In this document: positions 1 through 32,107 of the stretch, one piece after another
How positions within the stretch are numbered: the stretch's first letter is position 1
Layout of the letters: every line of letters starts with the position of its first letter
IMG/VR virus record: IMGVR_UViG_3300029319_000265
Coordinates: 1-32,107 of that record
Direction: 5' to 3' (one strand)
DNA from: a virus
DNA length: 32,107 nt
The notes under the pieces: model-generated
The model's database searches: none
Seen by the model: the letters and a program-made list of their open reading frames with translations, nothing else
What the model was told of the DNA's origin: nothing
Program-made: the position numbers and the translations under genes

Positions 1-158
1 CAAGTTTCAGATTTACGATTAGGCGATATTCTTCTTTAACAGAAAAATTCCGCATATCTTACGATTCAAAGACATTTGATATTCAATATATCAAAGATAT
101 AGAAGAAGGTAGAAAAAAATTTCAAGAAATATTGGCAACTGAAGGTGTAGCGACATAA
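1..158 (+). CDS. Head-closure / head-tail adaptor protein, 3' fragment
   Basis: These are the last 51 or so codons of a head-tail adaptor cut by the window edge. The complete copy is at 31408-31737. The reading frame starts at base 3 and ends with TAA at 156-158. Compared with the full copy, the three differences in this part (89, 134, 143) are all third-codon-position and silent. The stop overlaps the next start as TAATG, so translation of the two neck proteins is probably coupled. See the full-length entry for the family call (SPP1 gp16-like, PF05521). Confidence 0.85.
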   Translation, partial: SFRFTIRRYSSLTEKFRISYDSKTFDIQYIKDIEEGRKKFQEILATEGVAT

Positions 159-528
159 TGGGAATATCTGTTCAGATAGATAGCAAGATTGATCAAAATA
201 AAAAAAAGATCGATAAACTATTCATGCAAAATGCAACAAGACATGTTAATCGTGTTGCAGTGTATTTTCAAAATGAGATCAAAAGAGGTATGCAAAAAAC
301 ACCAAAAACAGGTGAAATATACACAAGGGGCAAAAAGAAACATATTGCATCATCTGAGGGCAATCCACCTGCGATTGACACAGGAAGATTAATTAGCAGT
401 ATTTTGGTGAGTCCTGCGACTGGTCTTGGTGCAGTTCCAACTGCAAAGGTAAAAACAAATGTAGAATATTCGTATAGACTTGATAAAGGCGAATTAAACA
501 GACCATTTATGAGTGAAAGAAGTACTGC
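1..528. repeat. Left copy of the 528-bp terminal redundancy
   Basis: This stretch aligns without gaps to 31580-32107. By direct comparison I count 11 substitutions, at 89, 134, 143, 211, 218, 238, 247, 317, 322, 395 and 451. It covers the end of the head-closure gene and most of the gp10-like gene. It shows that the molecule is circular or circularly permuted and that the window is slightly more than one genome long. It is not a repeated gene set inside the phage. Confidence 0.93.
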
Positions 529-6014: not shown

Positions 6015-6335
6015 ATGCTTTTATTTACAAAATCAATAGAAAAGAAACTGATCTCTAATTATGAGAAATTCAAATACGATTCTTATAATGAGAGACCAGT
6101 CGTAAAATTATTTCTACCTGAAGGTAGTTCTTACATGTTATTGACAGAATACAATCCTGAAGATGATCTAGCATTTGGATTATCATATATACATTGTAAA
6201 GAAATCGGTCTTGTTGATATGAGAGAAGTTCGTGCAATAAGATCGCCGTTATTTCAACTGCCAATGGAAAGAGATAGATATTACAAAACAAAGAAAACGA
6301 TAAATCAAATATTATACGAGGGCGATGATGAATAA
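6015..6335 (+). CDS. DUF2958 domain protein
   Basis: A 106-aa protein that matches the DUF2958 pattern (PF11171) over its length. It starts with a LLTK-like beginning (MLLFTKSIEKKLISNYEKF), then PVVKLFLPEG...WYATEY-like strands (here MLLTEYNPEDDLAFGL), and ends in the characteristic PLFQLPMERDRYY near residues 80-95. DUF2958 proteins are common in plasmids, conjugative elements and phages; their function is unknown to me. GGGGG upstream of ATG 6015 can serve as ribosome binding site after a 15-nt gap from the previous gene. Confidence 0.82.
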   Translation: MLLFTKSIEKKLISNYEKFKYDSYNERPVVKLFLPEGSSYMLLTEYNPEDDLAFGLSYIHCKEIGLVDMREVRAIRSPLFQLPMERDRYYKTKKTINQILYEGDDE

Positions 6336-9866: not shown

Positions 9867-10028
9867 ATGATTATAAAAAAAGAAGATTATCAGAAAATTG
9901 CAGATATCATCAGAAGTGATCAAATGTTGTTGAAAGACATTTTCAGAATCTTCCAAGAAAATCCTGATTTTTTTAAATGGTATACAAAAAATATGGATCA
10001 TATTGGGGGTTGGTTTGATGAAAAATGA
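9867..10028 (+). CDS. Small hypothetical protein between initiator and helicase
   Basis: A 53-aa protein (MIIKKEDYQKIADIIRSDQ...) that starts directly after the initiator stop and overlaps the helicase start by 11 nt. It is mostly helical, with aromatics near the end (FFKWY, GGWF). Function unknown. By place it could be a helicase loader-type accessory, but it is very short for that and no motif supports it. Confidence 0.5.
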   Translation: MIIKKEDYQKIADIIRSDQMLLKDIFRIFQENPDFFKWYTKNMDHIGGWFDEK

Positions 10029-10893
10029 AAAAATAACAGATGGTATATATACAGCAAATGATTTGTATGATTCGGTAATGTCATTGTATGAGGGGAAGTC
10101 TCATAAACAGTTTTCTACTGGTTTTGACACACTTGATCAATATTGGAAGATTGTAAAACCATGTTTCACTGTCATAACAGGAACACCAAACAGTGGTAAA
10201 AGTTCATTAAGTTATGATATAGCCATGAATCTTGCCAAATCAGAAGATTTTAAATTTGTTATTTTCAGTCCTGAGCATTCTCTTGCTATGAATGTGAAAC
10301 GATTGATTGAGAAATATACAAAGAAACCATTTGATAAAATGTTTAAGAACAGGATATCAGTTACTGAGCTTGGTGAGGCATTGGTCTTCATTGACCAACA
10401 TTTTTGGTTTATTGATAAAAAATCAGATAGTCCCGATATTGATTGGATTCTAGAAAAGGCATATTTCTGTACAAAAAAGTTGAAGATAGATGCATTAATC
10501 ATTGATCCGTATAACGAGATAAACCCAAATCGTACGGTTTTGCGAGAAGATGAGCATATCTCAGTTGTTATTTCTAAGATTAAAAGATTTAACAGAGAGA
10601 CCAACACAATAAGTTTCTTGGTCGCACACCCTAACAAACAAATCAGAAATCCCGATGGTAAGTTTGTTGTTGATAGCCTGTATTCTATTTCTGGCAGTTC
10701 TCATTTTAACAATAAGGCAGATATTGGTGTAATTGTTACTAGAGATTTTGAGCTTGGTCAGACAGAAGTCAGAATTGCCAAGGTCAGAGAGTTAGATTTA
10801 TATGGAAACATCGGCTCTGTTATCTTGAAATGGTCAGGCAATACAAGATCATTTCATACAGAGAGAGAATTCACCAAGATAAATGGTAAATGA
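10018..10893 (+). CDS. DnaB/Twinkle-type replicative helicase
   Basis: A 291-aa RecA-fold ATPase. Walker A is GTPNSGKS at residues 55-62, the DnaB-type strand VIFSPEH follows near residue 85, Walker B is ALIIDPYNEI, and the C-terminal half has FLVAHPNK and the SGSSHFNNKADIGVIV arginine-finger region typical of DnaB/Twinkle C-terminal domains. The protein has no N-terminal primase or DnaG-binding domain, so it must use a host primase. ATG 10018 has GGGGG upstream; a TTG at 10003 would add five residues. With the initiator upstream it forms the replication module. Confidence 0.82.
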   Translation: MKNEKITDGIYTANDLYDSVMSLYEGKSHKQFSTGFDTLDQYWKIVKPCFTVITGTPNSGKSSLSYDIAMNLAKSEDFKFVIFSPEHSLAMNVKRLIEKYTKKPFDKMFKNRISVTELGEALVFIDQHFWFIDKKSDSPDIDWILEKAYFCTKKLKIDALIIDPYNEINPNRTVLREDEHISVVISKIKRFNRETNTISFLVAHPNKQIRNPDGKFVVDSLYSISGSSHFNNKADIGVIVTRDFELGQTEVRIAKVRELDLYGNIGSVILKWSGNTRSFHTEREFTKINGK

Positions 10894-10921: not shown

Positions 10922-11545
10922 ATGAACATAAATCTTGTAGATATATCAGAAATCAAACCCTATGAGAACAATCCAAGAATAAAAAGTAATATCACAAAGG
11001 TCGCAGAATCTATAAAAAAATTTGGTTTTCAACAACCAATTGTTGTAGACAGGCAGAATATAATAATCGTAGGTCATTCAAGATACGAGGCATCAAAACA
11101 GTTAAATTTACAAAAAATACCTGTTCTTGTGGCAGAGAATATGTCTGCAGAAGATGTAAAGGCATATAGAATAGCAGATAATCGTACAAATCAAGATTCA
11201 GAATGGGATTTTCCCAAGTTAAATAAAGAATTTGGCGATCTTCTTGATATGAATTTTGATCTCACAGAATTAGGTTTTGATGAGAAAGAGATTGAAAATA
11301 TGATCACATTTAAAGGTGATGAAACATATTTTGATTCAGACATGGCAAGAGAACATTGGACAGAAATGCCTGATTTTATACATGAAGATAACAAACCATA
11401 CAGAACAATATTTTTACATTTTGATGATGATAAACAGGTAGAAGAATTTGCACAGATGATAAATCAAATAATTACAGACAAGACCAAAACGATTTATTTC
11501 AAAGAAAGAGAACAAAGGGTTTTGAAAGATAAGGTCTATGAGTGA
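10922..11545 (+). CDS. ParB-like nuclease-fold protein
   Basis: A 207-aa protein. Residues 1-95 form a ParB/sulfiredoxin-like domain, with DISEIKPYENNPR at the start and the GHSRYEA phosphate-binding motif at 51-57. The C-terminal part (about 140-207) has MPDFIHEDNKPYRTIFLHF continuing into ITDKTKTIYF, a second domain that I recognise as recurrent in phage ParB-like proteins near DNA-modification genes. It is a stand-alone ParB with no ParA. Its stop overlaps the glycosyltransferase start by 8 nt, so the two are co-translated. A role in DNA modification or nicking is inferred from this pairing. Confidence 0.78.
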   Translation: MNINLVDISEIKPYENNPRIKSNITKVAESIKKFGFQQPIVVDRQNIIIVGHSRYEASKQLNLQKIPVLVAENMSAEDVKAYRIADNRTNQDSEWDFPKLNKEFGDLLDMNFDLTELGFDEKEIENMITFKGDETYFDSDMAREHWTEMPDFIHEDNKPYRTIFLHFDDDKQVEEFAQMINQIITDKTKTIYFKEREQRVLKDKVYE

Positions 11546-12422
11546 TCTACAACCACAATTCCCATTATATATACCAAGCAAGGGCAGATATGAAAAAAGG
11601 CTAACTGCTAATGCGCTTGATGAACAACGCGTACCTTACAAATTGGTTATTGAAGAACAAGAATACACAAAATATGCAAGATTCGTAGATAAATCAAAAC
11701 TGCTGGTGTTAGATAAAAAATATCAGCAAGATTACGACACATTAGATGATCTTGGTTTTCAATTATCTAAGGGACCAGGTGCGGCGAGAAACTTCATTTG
11801 GGATCATTCAATATCAGAAGGGTACAAATGGCACTGGGTAATGGACGACAATATCGCTAAATTCAAAAGATTCATCAAGAATTCAGAAATAGATATTAAA
11901 TCAGGATCTATGTGGCGAGCCATGGAAGATTTCTGTCTTAGATATACAAATGTCGGTATGGCAGGACCAAATTATAATTTTTTTGTTGTTGATAATGCAG
12001 GTGCAGATTATGGTCCATTCACTGTGAATACACGAATCTATAGTTGTAATCTAATCAGAAACGATATTCCATTTAGATGGCGAGGCAGATATAACGAAGA
12101 TACAATATTGTCTTTAGACATGCTGAAAAAAGGTTGGTGCACCATTCAATTTAATTGTTTTCTTCAATGCAAGGCAAAAACATTATCAATGAAAGGTGGT
12201 AATACAGATGATTTATATAAGAAAACCAACAATAGATTAGAATTTGCGAATATGTTGCAATCAGTTCACCCAGATGTAACAGAGGTAAAAATGAAGTATG
12301 GCAGATGGCATCATATGGTCAATTACAGAAGATTTAAGAAACAAAACAAGCTAATTTACAAAGAAGGATTGACATTCAGTAAAAAACCAAATAATTATGG
12401 TCTTGTATTGAAACGAAAATAG
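11538..12422 (+). CDS. TET-associated-type DNA glycosyltransferase (TAGT family)
   Basis: A 294-aa protein with the pattern of the TET-associated glycosyltransferase family (PF20691). LYIPSKGRY lies at residues 10-18, GAARNFIWDH at 81-90, WHWVMDDNI at 98-106 (nucleotide-sugar binding acidic cluster), RYNEDT at 184-189, GWCTIQFN at 199-206 and KGGNT at 219-223. In known phages TAGT enzymes add sugars to oxidised 5-methylpyrimidines made by a TET/JBP dioxygenase. Here no TET, methyltransferase or hydroxymethylase gene is visible. It overlaps the ParB-like gene and precedes the terminase, so modification just before packaging is plausible. Confidence 0.78.
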   Translation: MSDLQPQFPLYIPSKGRYEKRLTANALDEQRVPYKLVIEEQEYTKYARFVDKSKLLVLDKKYQQDYDTLDDLGFQLSKGPGAARNFIWDHSISEGYKWHWVMDDNIAKFKRFIKNSEIDIKSGSMWRAMEDFCLRYTNVGMAGPNYNFFVVDNAGADYGPFTVNTRIYSCNLIRNDIPFRWRGRYNEDTILSLDMLKKGWCTIQFNCFLQCKAKTLSMKGGNTDDLYKKTNNRLEFANMLQSVHPDVTEVKMKYGRWHHMVNYRRFKKQNKLIYKEGLTFSKKPNNYGLVLKRK

Positions 12423-12450: not shown

Positions 12451-12846
12451 ATGCCAAAAGATATAAAAATAACAGATGATAAAAAAGAGGTTGTCAAAAA
12501 AGCATCAGGTATGGGATTGCCACATGATCAAATATGTTCATTGTTAAATATTAGTAGACCAACACTGTACAAATATTATCAGGAAGAATTACGAGAGGGA
12601 AAGGCGACTGCAAATTTCAAGGTAGCTAATAATCTTTTCAAGATTGCAACAAGTCAATCAAATGGTGCAGTAACAGCAGGTATTTTTTGGTTGAAAACAC
12701 AGGCAGGTTGGAAAGAACATAATGTAATCGAGGTTACAAACAGTAAACAAGAACATGACACATTTAGAAAACTCATTACAGACATTCGAGATGCTAAGCT
12801 ATCGAAACAAGATAGCATCGAATCTACTCACAAGCTGGATTCGTAA
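12451..12846 (+). CDS. terS: Terminase small subunit
   Basis: A 131-aa protein with an N-terminal helix-turn-helix (residues 12-45; MGLPHDQICSLLNISRPTLYKY). A helical segment follows with VANNLFKIATS and GAVTAGIFWLKTQAGW (about 67-95), a pattern I recognise from terminase small subunits of alphaproteobacterial phages. It recognises the phage DNA and feeds it to TerL. It lies directly upstream of TerL and overlaps it. The C-terminal 30 residues are charged and lie in the overlap. AAAAAAGG immediately before the ATG serves as ribosome binding site. Confidence 0.78.
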   Translation: MPKDIKITDDKKEVVKKASGMGLPHDQICSLLNISRPTLYKYYQEELREGKATANFKVANNLFKIATSQSNGAVTAGIFWLKTQAGWKEHNVIEVTNSKQEHDTFRKLITDIRDAKLSKQDSIESTHKLDS

Positions 12847-14029
12847 GGCAAGAGATAATCAACTCGTAGTAGATGATCCAAGATATAACATTTATTTGTT
12901 TTTGTGTGGTCGTGGGTGGGGTAAAACCTTATGTGGTGCGTACGATATCATACAATATTGTTTGATGAATGATAATGTTACATGTGGTGTTGTTGCACCA
13001 ACATATTCAGATTTAAGAAGGGTTGTATTTACTGGTGATAGTGGAATTATGAATGTTATCAACAGAGATTTACTAGATGAAACAGGTTATAACAAATCAA
13101 ACAATGAGATCAATTTTTATAATGGATCTAAGGTCATGGGATTCCCTGCACAAGAACCTGATAGGTTAAGAGGTGTGCAATTTCACAGAGCATGGTGTGA
13201 TGAATTGGCATCTTGGCGATATCCTGAATCTTTTGATAATTTGATGATGGCATTACGATTAGGGCAAGAGCCAAAATGTATTATTACAACAACACCAAGA
13301 CCAACAAAGATAATAAAAACATTGGCAAAAAGAGATGACACAAAGGTAATCAGAGGTACAACATTTGATAATGTAGATAATCTCGCAAAATCATCAATTG
13401 AAATGTTAAAAGAAAGATATATGGGAACAAGGTTAGGTAGGCAAGAGTTGTATGCTGAGATTCTTGAAGATGTAGAAGGTGCATTGTTCAACATAGATTT
13501 GATAGAACAATCAAGAGTGAGAGATGTTCCTGATCTTGAAAGAATTGTTGTTGCAATTGATCCTGCAGTTACCAATAATCCACATTCAGACGAAACAGGT
13601 ATTGTCGTTGCAGGTAGAGATACACGAGGTCATTTTTACATTCTTAATGATTCAAGCATGATAAATAATCCTGATACATGGATAAACAAGGCAATCAGTT
13701 TGTATCATCAATACGATTGCGATAGGATAGTGGCAGAAGTAAACAATGGTGGTGATCTTATTGAAAGACTCTTACGAACAAAAGAACAAAATATTTCTTA
13801 CAAAAGTGTAAGAGCAACAAGGGGAAAAATAATCAGAGCAGAGCCAATATCAGCATTGTATGAACAAAAAAGGGTACATCATGTGGGAATATTAACCGAA
13901 TTAGAAGAACAGATGTGTCAATTCACAGGAAATAATGTAAAATCACAACATGACGATAGAGTTGATGCATTGGTTTGGGCGATAACATCATTACAGAGTT
14001 CAGGTCAGGCAGTATTTAGGATTAGTTAG
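12755..14029 (+). CDS. terL: Terminase large subunit
   Basis: A 424-aa packaging ATPase/nuclease. Walker A is GRGWGKT at residues 52-58, Walker B ends in CDE at 148-150, the coupling motif TTTPRP lies at 178-183, the first nuclease aspartate is in AIDPAVT (D269), and the last nuclease aspartates are in HDDRVDAL near residue 400. The length is normal for a gene-transfer-agent/HK97-like TerL. The start is uncertain: ATG 12755 overlaps TerS by 92 nt, while ATG 12791 would remove twelve residues and reduce the overlap to 56 nt. Headful packaging would fit the circularly permuted genome. Confidence 0.92.
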   Translation: MTHLENSLQTFEMLSYRNKIASNLLTSWIRKARDNQLVVDDPRYNIYLFLCGRGWGKTLCGAYDIIQYCLMNDNVTCGVVAPTYSDLRRVVFTGDSGIMNVINRDLLDETGYNKSNNEINFYNGSKVMGFPAQEPDRLRGVQFHRAWCDELASWRYPESFDNLMMALRLGQEPKCIITTTPRPTKIIKTLAKRDDTKVIRGTTFDNVDNLAKSSIEMLKERYMGTRLGRQELYAEILEDVEGALFNIDLIEQSRVRDVPDLERIVVAIDPAVTNNPHSDETGIVVAGRDTRGHFYILNDSSMINNPDTWINKAISLYHQYDCDRIVAEVNNGGDLIERLLRTKEQNISYKSVRATRGKIIRAEPISALYEQKRVHHVGILTELEEQMCQFTGNNVKSQHDDRVDALVWAITSLQSSGQAVFRIS

Positions 14030-20008: not shown

Positions 20009-20586
20009 TGGCTAGAACACTCGGTACAGATTTTTCTGCACAATTAGAGAGTTCATCATTTACACCTTTCTATGCAATATCAATTGCATTCTCACCAAAT
20101 AAATTAAATCTTTGGACAGGTTATAATGATTTGTTTTTTGATAGTGAAACATATGTTGGATCAGGAAATCTTTTACTGATTTCAAATATAGAAGAAACAT
20201 CAGACATCAAGGCAACAGGCATGAGCATATCTCTTTCAGGTTTAGATTCTAATATTCTTGCAGAAATATTGACAGAAGATGTGCAAGGTACATCTGTAGA
20301 GGTCTACTTTGGTGTTCTTACAACAACCGATAATCAAACTGTTCTCGTAGATGATCCATACAAGGTATTTGATGGTTTCATTGATACAATGACAATTGCA
20401 GAATCTGGCGAAGAATCAACAGTAAGAGTCACTGTTGAGAATAAATTAATCACATTAGAAAAGGCAAAATCTAAAAGATATACAGACCAAGACCAAAAAC
20501 AACTGTTTCCGACAGATAAGGGTTTAGAATTTGTTGATGATCTACAAGACAAGTCACTGGTATGGGGCGGTGGAACAAGAAATTAG
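20008..20586 (+). CDS. Tail tip hub-like protein (DUF2163-like)
   Basis: A 192-aa beta-rich protein. It opens with ARTLGTDFSAQLESSSFTPF, then an LNLWTGYNDLFFDSETYVGSG pattern, a strand-rich middle and the family-like C-terminal RYTDQDQKQLFPTDKGLEF with QDKSLVWG. This is the pattern of the DUF2163/gpL-like proteins found before the gpJ-like tip protein. It likely forms part of the tail tip ring. Its end is overlapped by the acyltransferase gene. Confidence 0.68.
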   Translation: MARTLGTDFSAQLESSSFTPFYAISIAFSPNKLNLWTGYNDLFFDSETYVGSGNLLLISNIEETSDIKATGMSISLSGLDSNILAEILTEDVQGTSVEVYFGVLTTTDNQTVLVDDPYKVFDGFIDTMTIAESGEESTVRVTVENKLITLEKAKSKRYTDQDQKQLFPTDKGLEFVDDLQDKSLVWGGGTRN

Positions 20587-21001
20587 AAATGATGCATTAG
20601 AGATCATTTATTTCTTACGGAAATTTGAAAAATATGATCATGTTGGCGATCTTGATTTATTAAATTATCTTAGACCATTCATAGATAACAGACAATTCAA
20701 ATTATTCAGAAATGAAGGTGTCGTATCAGGGTATGTATCATGGGCATTTTTTGATGATCTAAACCAACATATATTTAAAAAGATCGGTACACCACACAGG
20801 ATCAATTCAGGGCATAATGCATGGATTATAGATGTTGTTTCAACAGATAATGTAAAAAATCAAGTCAAATGGTTATTTAATTATTTTAGAAATAAATATG
20901 GTATAAACAAGAAAATAAACTATATCAGGGTAGATCAATATAATAATATCTGTACTGTAGGATCAAAATATACAAAGGAATATCATAGATGGGCGGAGTA
21001 G
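20537..21001 (+). CDS. HlyC-like toxin-activating lysine acyltransferase
   Basis: A 154-aa protein whose pattern matches the RTX toxin-activating acyltransferases (HlyC, PF02794). A His at residue 35 (YDH) lies about 32 residues before GYVSWAFF (65-72), equivalent to HlyC His23 before YCSW. WIIDVVS (97-103) holds the Asp equivalent to HlyC Asp92, and YIRVDQ (129-134) matches the FRAIRVD region. HlyC transfers fatty acyl groups from acyl-ACP to lysines. The start is uncertain: ATG 20537 overlaps the hub gene by 50 nt, and GTG 20570 is an alternative. It overlaps the gpJ-like gene by 13 nt, so it is part of the tail-tip operon. Confidence 0.74.
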   Translation: MIYKTSHWYGAVEQEIRNDALEIIYFLRKFEKYDHVGDLDLLNYLRPFIDNRQFKLFRNEGVVSGYVSWAFFDDLNQHIFKKIGTPHRINSGHNAWIIDVVSTDNVKNQVKWLFNYFRNKYGINKKINYIRVDQYNNICTVGSKYTKEYHRWAE

Positions 21002-31408: not shown

Positions 31409-31737
31409 TGTCTCTTATTGGTGAAATGAGAAACAGAATCGTATTGCAGACACTAGGCGGATCAACAGATGCAGGTGGTGGTACAACATCAACATATTCT
31501 ACGGCAACGACAGTATGGGCGAAGGTAGAAAATTTATCAGGCAGTGAATCTGTGTTTGGTGATCAATTACGAGCAATCGCAAGTTTCAGATTTACGATTA
31601 GGCGATATTCTTCTTTAACAGAAAAATTCCGCATATCTTACGATTCAAAGACATTTGATATTCAATACATCAAAGATATAGAAGAAGGTAGAAAAAAATT
31701 TCAAGAAATATTAGCAACTGAGGGTGTAGCGACATAA
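31408..31737 (+). CDS. Head-closure / head-tail adaptor protein
   Basis: A 109-aa protein of the phage head-tail joining family (PF05521, SPP1 gp16-like): MRNRIVLQT at residues 7-15, STATTVWAKVENLSGSE at 31-47, FTIRRYSSL, and a C-terminal FDIQYIKDIEEGRKKFQEI. Starts in a TAATG overlap with the connector and ends in the same way before the gp10-like gene. The distal part is duplicated at the left edge (1-158). Confidence 0.85.
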   Translation: MSLIGEMRNRIVLQTLGGSTDAGGGTTSTYSTATTVWAKVENLSGSESVFGDQLRAIASFRFTIRRYSSLTEKFRISYDSKTFDIQYIKDIEEGRKKFQEILATEGVAT

Positions 31738-32107
31738 TGGGAATATCTGTTCAGATAGATAGCAAGATTGATCAAAATAAAAAAAAGATTGATAAATTAT
31801 TCATGCAAAATGCAACGAGACATGTAAATCGTGTTGCAGTGTATTTTCAAAATGAGATCAAAAGAGGTATGCAAAAAACACCAAAAACAGGTGAAGTATA
31901 TACAAGGGGCAAAAAGAAACATATTGCATCATCTGAGGGCAATCCACCTGCGATTGACACAGGAAGATTAATTGGCAGTATTTTGGTGAGTCCTGCGACT
32001 GGTCTTGGTGCAGTTCCAACTGCAAAGGTGAAAACAAATGTAGAATATTCGTATAGACTTGATAAAGGCGAATTAAACAGACCATTTATGAGTGAAAGAA
32101 GTACTGC
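31580..32107. repeat. Right copy of the 528-bp terminal redundancy
   Basis: Counterpart of bases 1-528. Relative to the left copy it carries T-to-C at 31668, G-to-A at 31713 and eight more downstream changes besides 31722. Nine of the 11 changes are silent. Genome unit is therefore 31,579 bp if the offset is constant, which it is because no indels occur. Confidence 0.93.
31737..32107 (+). CDS. HK97 gp10-like protein, 5' part of second copy
   Basis: The first 123 or so codons of the same gene as at 158-583, cut by the right edge. Compared with the left copy it has I-to-V and S-to-G changes and otherwise only silent differences. It represents the same locus of the circular genome, probably from a sister strain. 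Confidence 0.87.
   Translation, partial: MGISVQIDSKIDQNKKKIDKLFMQNATRHVNRVAVYFQNEIKRGMQKTPKTGEVYTRGKKKHIASSEGNPPAIDTGRLIGSILVSPATGLGAVPTAKVKTNVEYSYRLDKGELNRPFMSERST

Follow-up and report, generated by a model that had tools for sequence, protein, structure and literature searches.

A TAGT glycosyltransferase paired with a ParB-borne MP domain as a putative stand-alone DNA-glycosylation module of phages

Glycosyltransferases of the TAGT family (PF20691) are encoded in TET/JBP-linked phage cassettes of the type ParB-TET-TAGT (PF12851 plus PF20691), and a 2013 paper by Iyer and colleagues is said to have introduced these systems. The family is not confined to TET phages, as PF20691 also takes in the beta-glucosyl-HMC-alpha-glucosyltransferase of phage T6 (Ggt). 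According to the available text of PMC13216743, Ggt adds a second glucose to glucosyl-hmC, a GT-A fold has been reported for the T6 TAGT, and a TAGT is present without an alpha- or beta-GT in 288 of the 753 phage genomes counted. Such solitary TAGTs, noted there in 2026 and termed potentially novel in function, are already known, as is an enzyme of phage Aeh1, a glucosyl transferase which the available text of PMC8056088 lists after Iyer 2013 as presumably DNA modifying with an “unknown base” and with no mention of a partner domain. The ParB_N fold, in turn, is described in the available text of PMC12704722 as binding several NTPs and as being fused to methylases in phages.

The locus described here belongs to a small marine phage and is located in IMG/VR record IMGVR_UViG_3300029319_000265, the entire 32,107-nucleotide stretch of which represents the window under analysis. 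Because a 528-bp repeat with 97.9% identity is present at its ends, the record is considered effectively complete, with a unit genome of approximately 31,579 bp. A ParB-like gene and a TAGT gene lie, in that order, between those encoding a DnaB-like helicase and the terminase subunits (Table 1). The original prediction, that an intact TAGT is preceded by an overlapping ParB-like gene and sits directly before the terminase, agrees with this arrangement, and the upstream gene likewise overlaps TAGT in 65 of 77 related viral loci. A profile search with PF20691, which had been proposed as a check, returned a full-model match (model positions 1 to 205, window positions 11559 to 12200) scoring 131.7 bits (cut-off, 27.5) and containing no stops.

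The ParB-like product was also matched by phrog_620 (ParB-like; 9.7e-49) and by phrog_498 (“DNA methyltransferase”; 1.6e-40), the latter via the ParB part only. It does not qualify as a canonical ParB partition protein, scoring 43.7 bits against TIGR00180 (cut-off, 58.45), and no ParA partner was found among the window genes covered by the Pfam scan. The same N-terminal ParB fold is positioned beside a DNA-modifying enzyme in phage ParB-methylase fusions (phrog_498) and in the ParB-CTPase-fold fusions surveyed in PMC12704722; however, the available main text of that survey makes no mention of a glycosyltransferase, whereas the window protein possesses an MP tail (see below) and appears to serve a glycosyltransferase.

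Table 1. Positions of the cassette, its borders, and the end overlap in the window
Feature	Position	Strand	Evidence
ParB_N-MP protein, 207 aa (N-terminal ParB/Srx-fold plus C-terminal MP)	10922..11545	+	PF02195, 37.9 bits; phrog_620; alignment
ParB_N domain with P-motif-like GHSRYEA	10928..11158	+	Pfam match, residues 3-79; sequence
MP domain (W..MPDF ... F ... TDKTKTIYF), residues 138-207 of ParB	11333..11542	+	Alignments, locus tallies, reciprocal scan
ParB/TAGT reading-frame overlap, 8 nt	11538..11545	+	Sequence
MP-type TAGT glycosyltransferase, 294 aa, predicted GT-A fold	11538..12422	+	PF20691, 131 bits; modelled relative
DDN motif (D103 D104 N105), presumed metal/UDP-sugar site	11844..11852	+	Invariant in TAGT alignment
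RWRGRYNED motif (residues 180-188), presumed active-site segment	12075..12101	+	Nearly/fully invariant in TAGT alignment
DnaB-like helicase, left border of modification slot	10003..10893	+	PF03796; kept in relatives
Terminase small subunit, right border of slot	12451..12846	+	phrog_309; kept in relatives
Terminase large subunit, query for sister phages	12755..14029	+	PF03237/PF17289
End overlap, left copy	1..528		97.9% identity to 31580-32107
End overlap, right copy	31580..32107		97.9% identity to 1-528

The last approximately 65 residues of the ParB-like protein constitute a domain for which the name MP is coined here, and which follows the pattern W-x2-MPEF and, after a stretch that reads beta-alpha-beta, T-x-KTK-x-IW[FY]P. 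In the ParB alignment, most of the invariant positions fall within MP (W146, M149, P150, and F176), ParB_N contributing only N17 and G51. MP has no family match in Pfam or NCBIfam, and a fold search using a 70-residue MP model, itself a weak model, returned nothing significant.

When viral contigs were scanned with TAGT alone, at least 598 relatives were recovered, of which 80 were retained, and wherever upstream room exists TAGT is preceded by a ParB-type gene or by a short gene encoding 76 to 104 aa. MP occurs in three forms, namely, as the tail of ParB, as a separate gene product of 74 to 115 aa, or fused to TAGT. The script placed MP next to TAGT or in fusion with it in 74 of the 80 loci retained from at least 598 relatives, in 40 of 52 loci of the genome TAGT scan, and in 50 of 52 loci of the viral 1.124.O scan; nearly all loci scored as being without MP have no upstream sequence, are truncated or frameshifted, or represent overlap artifacts that conceal an existing MP. 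Thus, L060, L105, L138, L144, and L152 do contain MP despite a script output of “no MP detected,” while TAGT is split over two frames in L225 and partial in L153, and a divergent MP-like stretch is discernible, by eye only, in L134/L133 and L149. The reciprocal MP-only scan, whose query was a subset of closer MP sequences and which is thus biased toward MP sequences near that subset, found TAGT in 77 of 77 loci, of which 72 have it as the adjoining gene and 5 at a distance of up to 1 kb, and TET in none. Fusion of MP to the N terminus of TAGT is evident in the cultured phages Aeromonas Aeh1, Tenacibaculum PTm1, Vibrio Kuja, Pectobacterium POP12, and Vibrio 1.076.O and 1.124.O, and a single polypeptide of one contig (L130) harbors ParB_N, MP, and TAGT together. 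The ParB proteins of 36 TET loci, on the other hand, are without MP.

This pairing is spread over hundreds of contigs of very different phages, and MP is, as read from the sequences, the constant partner of the DDN-type TAGT clade (see below) in essentially all readable loci, with ParB_N being optional. Defining an MP-TAGT module as MP adjoining or fused to a DDN-type TAGT, the window cassette is one such module. The original prediction had named the correct partner and its intactness, yet was incomplete, having overlooked MP as well as MP-TAGT fusions, the division of TAGTs into DDN and DDD types, and the swapping of whole modification cassettes in the slot. A second short MP-like gene was observed directly downstream of the fused MP-TAGT gene of Aeh1 (L243, 11122 to 11322) and of one other contig (L093, 4861 to 5040).

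The motif HW[VIL]xDDN was read in 162 of 172 distinct strong MP-linked TAGT matches, the remaining 10 being truncated or departing from the exact pattern, while DDD replaces DDN in seven TET-linked TAGTs and in T6 Ggt. The ED pair of RWRGRYNED aligns with the ED of T6 Ggt and of the TET-linked TAGTs. In a 38-sequence tree, 30 MP-type TAGTs fall on one side of a branch with support of 91/88; the TET-linked TAGTs are located outside this clade on long branches, and their mutual order is, therefore, uncertain. The predicted model of the Aeh1 relative of the window TAGT (pTM, 0.84) has GT-A enzymes as its best PDB fold matches, and from this model, coupled with DDN, the window TAGT is predicted to adopt a GT-A fold with an acidic metal motif. 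A PDB sequence search with the TAGT profile yielded 0 matches.

Compared with the described systems, the TET/JBP-linked cassettes resemble the window in Pfam family and ParB_N partner and, in sister phages, occupy the same helicase-terminase slot, but differ in that the window has no TET and possesses MP and DDN, whereas their TAGTs carry DDD and lie outside the MP clade. T6/T2 Ggt is likewise a PF20691 member with the GT-A DD motif and the ED pair; however, in T6 a dCMP hydroxymethylase is encoded next to ggt, and Ggt is not accompanied by MP. The solitary TAGT phages of PMC13216743 resemble the window in having TAGT without an alpha- or beta-GT, but an MP partner, TET absence, and cassette exchange are not described in its available text. 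The Aeh1 enzyme is an MP-type TAGT fused to MP, its identity with the listed Aeh1ORF087c being assumed. None of the accessible papers was found to describe MP, the DDN signature, or the swapping of cassettes.

It had also been predicted that the essentially complete genome has no visible dioxygenase, methylase, or hydroxymethylase, a claim with which all searches concur. No match to PF12851 (TET/JBP), PF00303 (thymidylate synthase), or PF00145 (C5-methylase) was obtained in the 32-kb window, the PF12851 control reaching 105 bits in Pelagibacter phage HTVC112P and the positive controls for PF00303 being matched. A Pfam scan of nearly all called window open reading frames detected no dioxygenase, methylase, or hydroxymethylase, and PHROGs detected no base hydroxylase among the early genes. 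A dioxygenase among the small early proteins was considered and rejected, as neither Pfam nor PHROG matches support it, profile searches being blind to a small or novel enzyme outside any profile. By these profiles, the window harbors neither a TET in the same genome, as in the TET-linked glycosylation system, nor the dCMP hydroxymethylase of T-even hmC glucosylation.

Beyond the window, 50 viral records, many of which are fragmentary such that absences are only suggestive, contained TET over the cut-off in 0 cases, thymidylate synthase in 0, and a C5-methylase in 3; a TET match of 14.8 bits in the L060 record was under the cut-off and was rejected. TET is present in 0 of 7 cultured MP-TAGT phages. 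Thymidylate-synthase homologues, possibly hydroxymethylases, occur in five of the seven, namely, Aeh1, PTm1, POP12, Kuja, and henriette, all with genomes of >100 kb, and the approximately 48-kb cultured Vibrio phages 1.076.O and 1.124.O, which encode the fused enzyme, have no TET, thymidylate synthase, or annotated hydroxylase. Among the 14 host genomes searched, each with an MP-TAGT locus on its contigs and including cultured Pantoea, Erwinia, Chryseobacterium, Rhodovulum, Xenophilus, and Marivivens, TET was found in one (Winogradskyella) and was absent from 13. A host-provided acceptor, one of the sources originally suggested, is, therefore, unlikely as far as the TET route is concerned. The accompanying suggestion that early genes of the window make the acceptor retains little weight, because the same TAGT and the same partner occur in very different phages and no third gene recurs within 6.5 kb of TAGT other than the ParB/MP gene and core replication, packaging, and head genes.

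Sister phages, which were found by terminase similarity (66 to 92% identity in the best matches), keep the order Rep-DnaB-slot-TerS-TerL, and the content of the slot is subject to exchange. It is occupied by ParB_N-MP and TAGT in L245, L247, and L249; by ParB, TET, and a TET-linked TAGT in L254, L268, L276 to L278, L281, and L318; by ParB and a C5-methylase in L293 and L308 to L310; by ParB fused to an N6/N4-methylase in L263, L265, L267, and L270; by an N6/N4-methylase in L300 and L301; by ParB and a PAPS-reductase-like protein in L291; and by ParB and ABC-GNAT in L261 and L262. Other slots contain ParB alone, genes without a recognized family, or no larger genes, and in Psychrobacter phage Y8A ParB and then a Mom protein are encoded ahead of the terminase. 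The TET cassettes of sister phages carry their own DDD-type TAGT, without MP. That enzymes with a known or presumed role in DNA modification alternate with MP-TAGT in the slot represents the strongest evidence that MP-TAGT would also act on DNA and need no TET, and slot content points to a stand-alone DNA-modification module.

Several further features of these slots and of related cassettes were observed. The ParB-linked ABC-ATPase fused to a GNAT domain (L262, 4587 to 5669) is possibly another DNA-modifying enzyme, and a 204-aa protein without a recognized family recurs in the slot, sometimes before ParB-methylase (L250, 1159 to 1773, and relatives). Pelagibacter phage HTVC112P (L098, 4001 to 6223) possesses a cassette of ParB, TET/JBP, and an FkbM-type methyltransferase, the TET of which is annotated in the record as DnaJ/SNF2, in what looks like a misannotation.

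With a probability of approximately 60%, we consider ParB_N-MP and TAGT to form a stand-alone phage DNA-glycosylation module, and the minimal DNA-glycosylation system originally suggested is also the likeliest reading here. The gene pair probably attaches sugars to the phage's own DNA. TAGT would function as a GT-A glycosyltransferase drawing its sugar from the host nucleotide-sugar pool, with MP as its obligate docking or positioning subunit, while ParB_N, which carries MP in the window phage, would probably bring the enzyme to DNA in a nucleotide-dependent manner; the sugar would be put on phage DNA before packaging and may thereby block restriction. As no TET or thymidylate-synthase-type enzyme is encoded, the acceptor would either not be a TET product or be made by an unrecognized route. 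The proposed module is weakened by the usual requirement of GT-A enzymes for an accepting nucleophile, which no recognized gene provides, by the thymidylate-synthase homologues of the five cultured phages, and by the lack of a fold match for the weak model of MP alone. In a somewhat doubtful version of this proposal, MP would form part of the acceptor site and an unhydroxylated DNA position, whether on a canonical base or elsewhere in the DNA, would be glycosylated directly, one enzyme of two parts thereby taking on the work for which other systems use both TET and TAGT. Tentatively, the acceptor may instead be ordinary 5hmC or 5hmU made by an unrecognized phage enzyme or a non-TET host enzyme, MP-TAGT being otherwise TAGT-like: the best-studied relative, T6 Ggt, acts on an already glucosylated hydroxymethylated base (available text of PMC13216743), several large MP-TAGT phages encode the homologues just mentioned, and one contig (L129) carries MP-TAGT and ParB-TET-TAGT side by side. 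Such an acceptor is, however, less in keeping with the recurrence of only core phage genes near MP-TAGT, with the absence of TET and thymidylate synthase from the 50 viral records and the two cultured approximately 48-kb phages, with the 13 of 14 very different hosts without TET, and with the distinct, MP-free TAGT which accompanies TET in sister phages.

A protein target, whether a virion protein, the terminase, or a host protein, would explain the missing hydroxylase and is in keeping with the location of TAGT near head and packaging genes and with GT-A fold neighbors which include protein glycosyltransferases, e.g., COLGALT1; it is nonetheless unlikely, given that DNA-modification enzymes fill the slot in sister phages, that many phages encode fusions of ParB_N with DNA methylases (available text of PMC12704722), and that the closest named relatives act on DNA. 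Far less probable is that MP is itself glycosylated by TAGT or inhibits it, the pair then being a small self-modifying or toxin-like unit. Such a role is favored by the small size of MP, its adjacency to TAGT, and its strong conservation at W, MP, F, and TK.IW, but its fusion to TAGT or ParB_N in many loci and its constant position on the same side of TAGT are a better fit for a subunit than for a substrate.

Solitary TAGTs, a stated open problem in the available text of PMC13216743, are hereby given a defining partner domain and a motif signature, and the sister phages in which a TET-based cassette takes the place of MP-TAGT at this locus represent a natural experiment. If DNA is indeed glycosylated without prior hydroxylation, this would constitute a new DNA-modification chemistry and a useful tool enzyme; if glycosylation is not direct, a hydroxylation route shared by these phages would be a well-defined object to search for. 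The target of MP-TAGT can be tested directly in the cultured phages Vibrio 1.076.O and 1.124.O and Aeromonas Aeh1.

Additional sugar enzymes are encoded within certain cassettes, including a second TAGT (L064, L104, and Kuja), a DXD sugar transferase (L047), a GT-B-like gene between MP and TAGT without a convincing NCBIfam match (L139), and a SAM-dependent methyltransferase beside or fused to an MP-type TAGT (L030, 9110 to 10759; L012, 9208 to 10014), which is weakly like sugar O-methyltransferases. Given these enzymes, the sugars of some phages may be extended or capped. On a single contig (L129, 533 to 3409), a fused MP-TAGT (DDN) lies beside TET and a DDD-type TAGT on the opposite strand, and the gene upstream of MP-TAGT in L134 (7746 to 9473) opens with another TAGT-like domain (LDDD), followed by a region without assignment. 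Elsewhere in the window, a DUF2958 protein (62.5 bits) is encoded in the early-gene region (6015 to 6335, plus strand), and an HlyC-like acyltransferase-type protein (PF02794, 39.9 bits) is encoded at positions 20531 to 21001 (plus strand) amid an otherwise ordinary tail operon.
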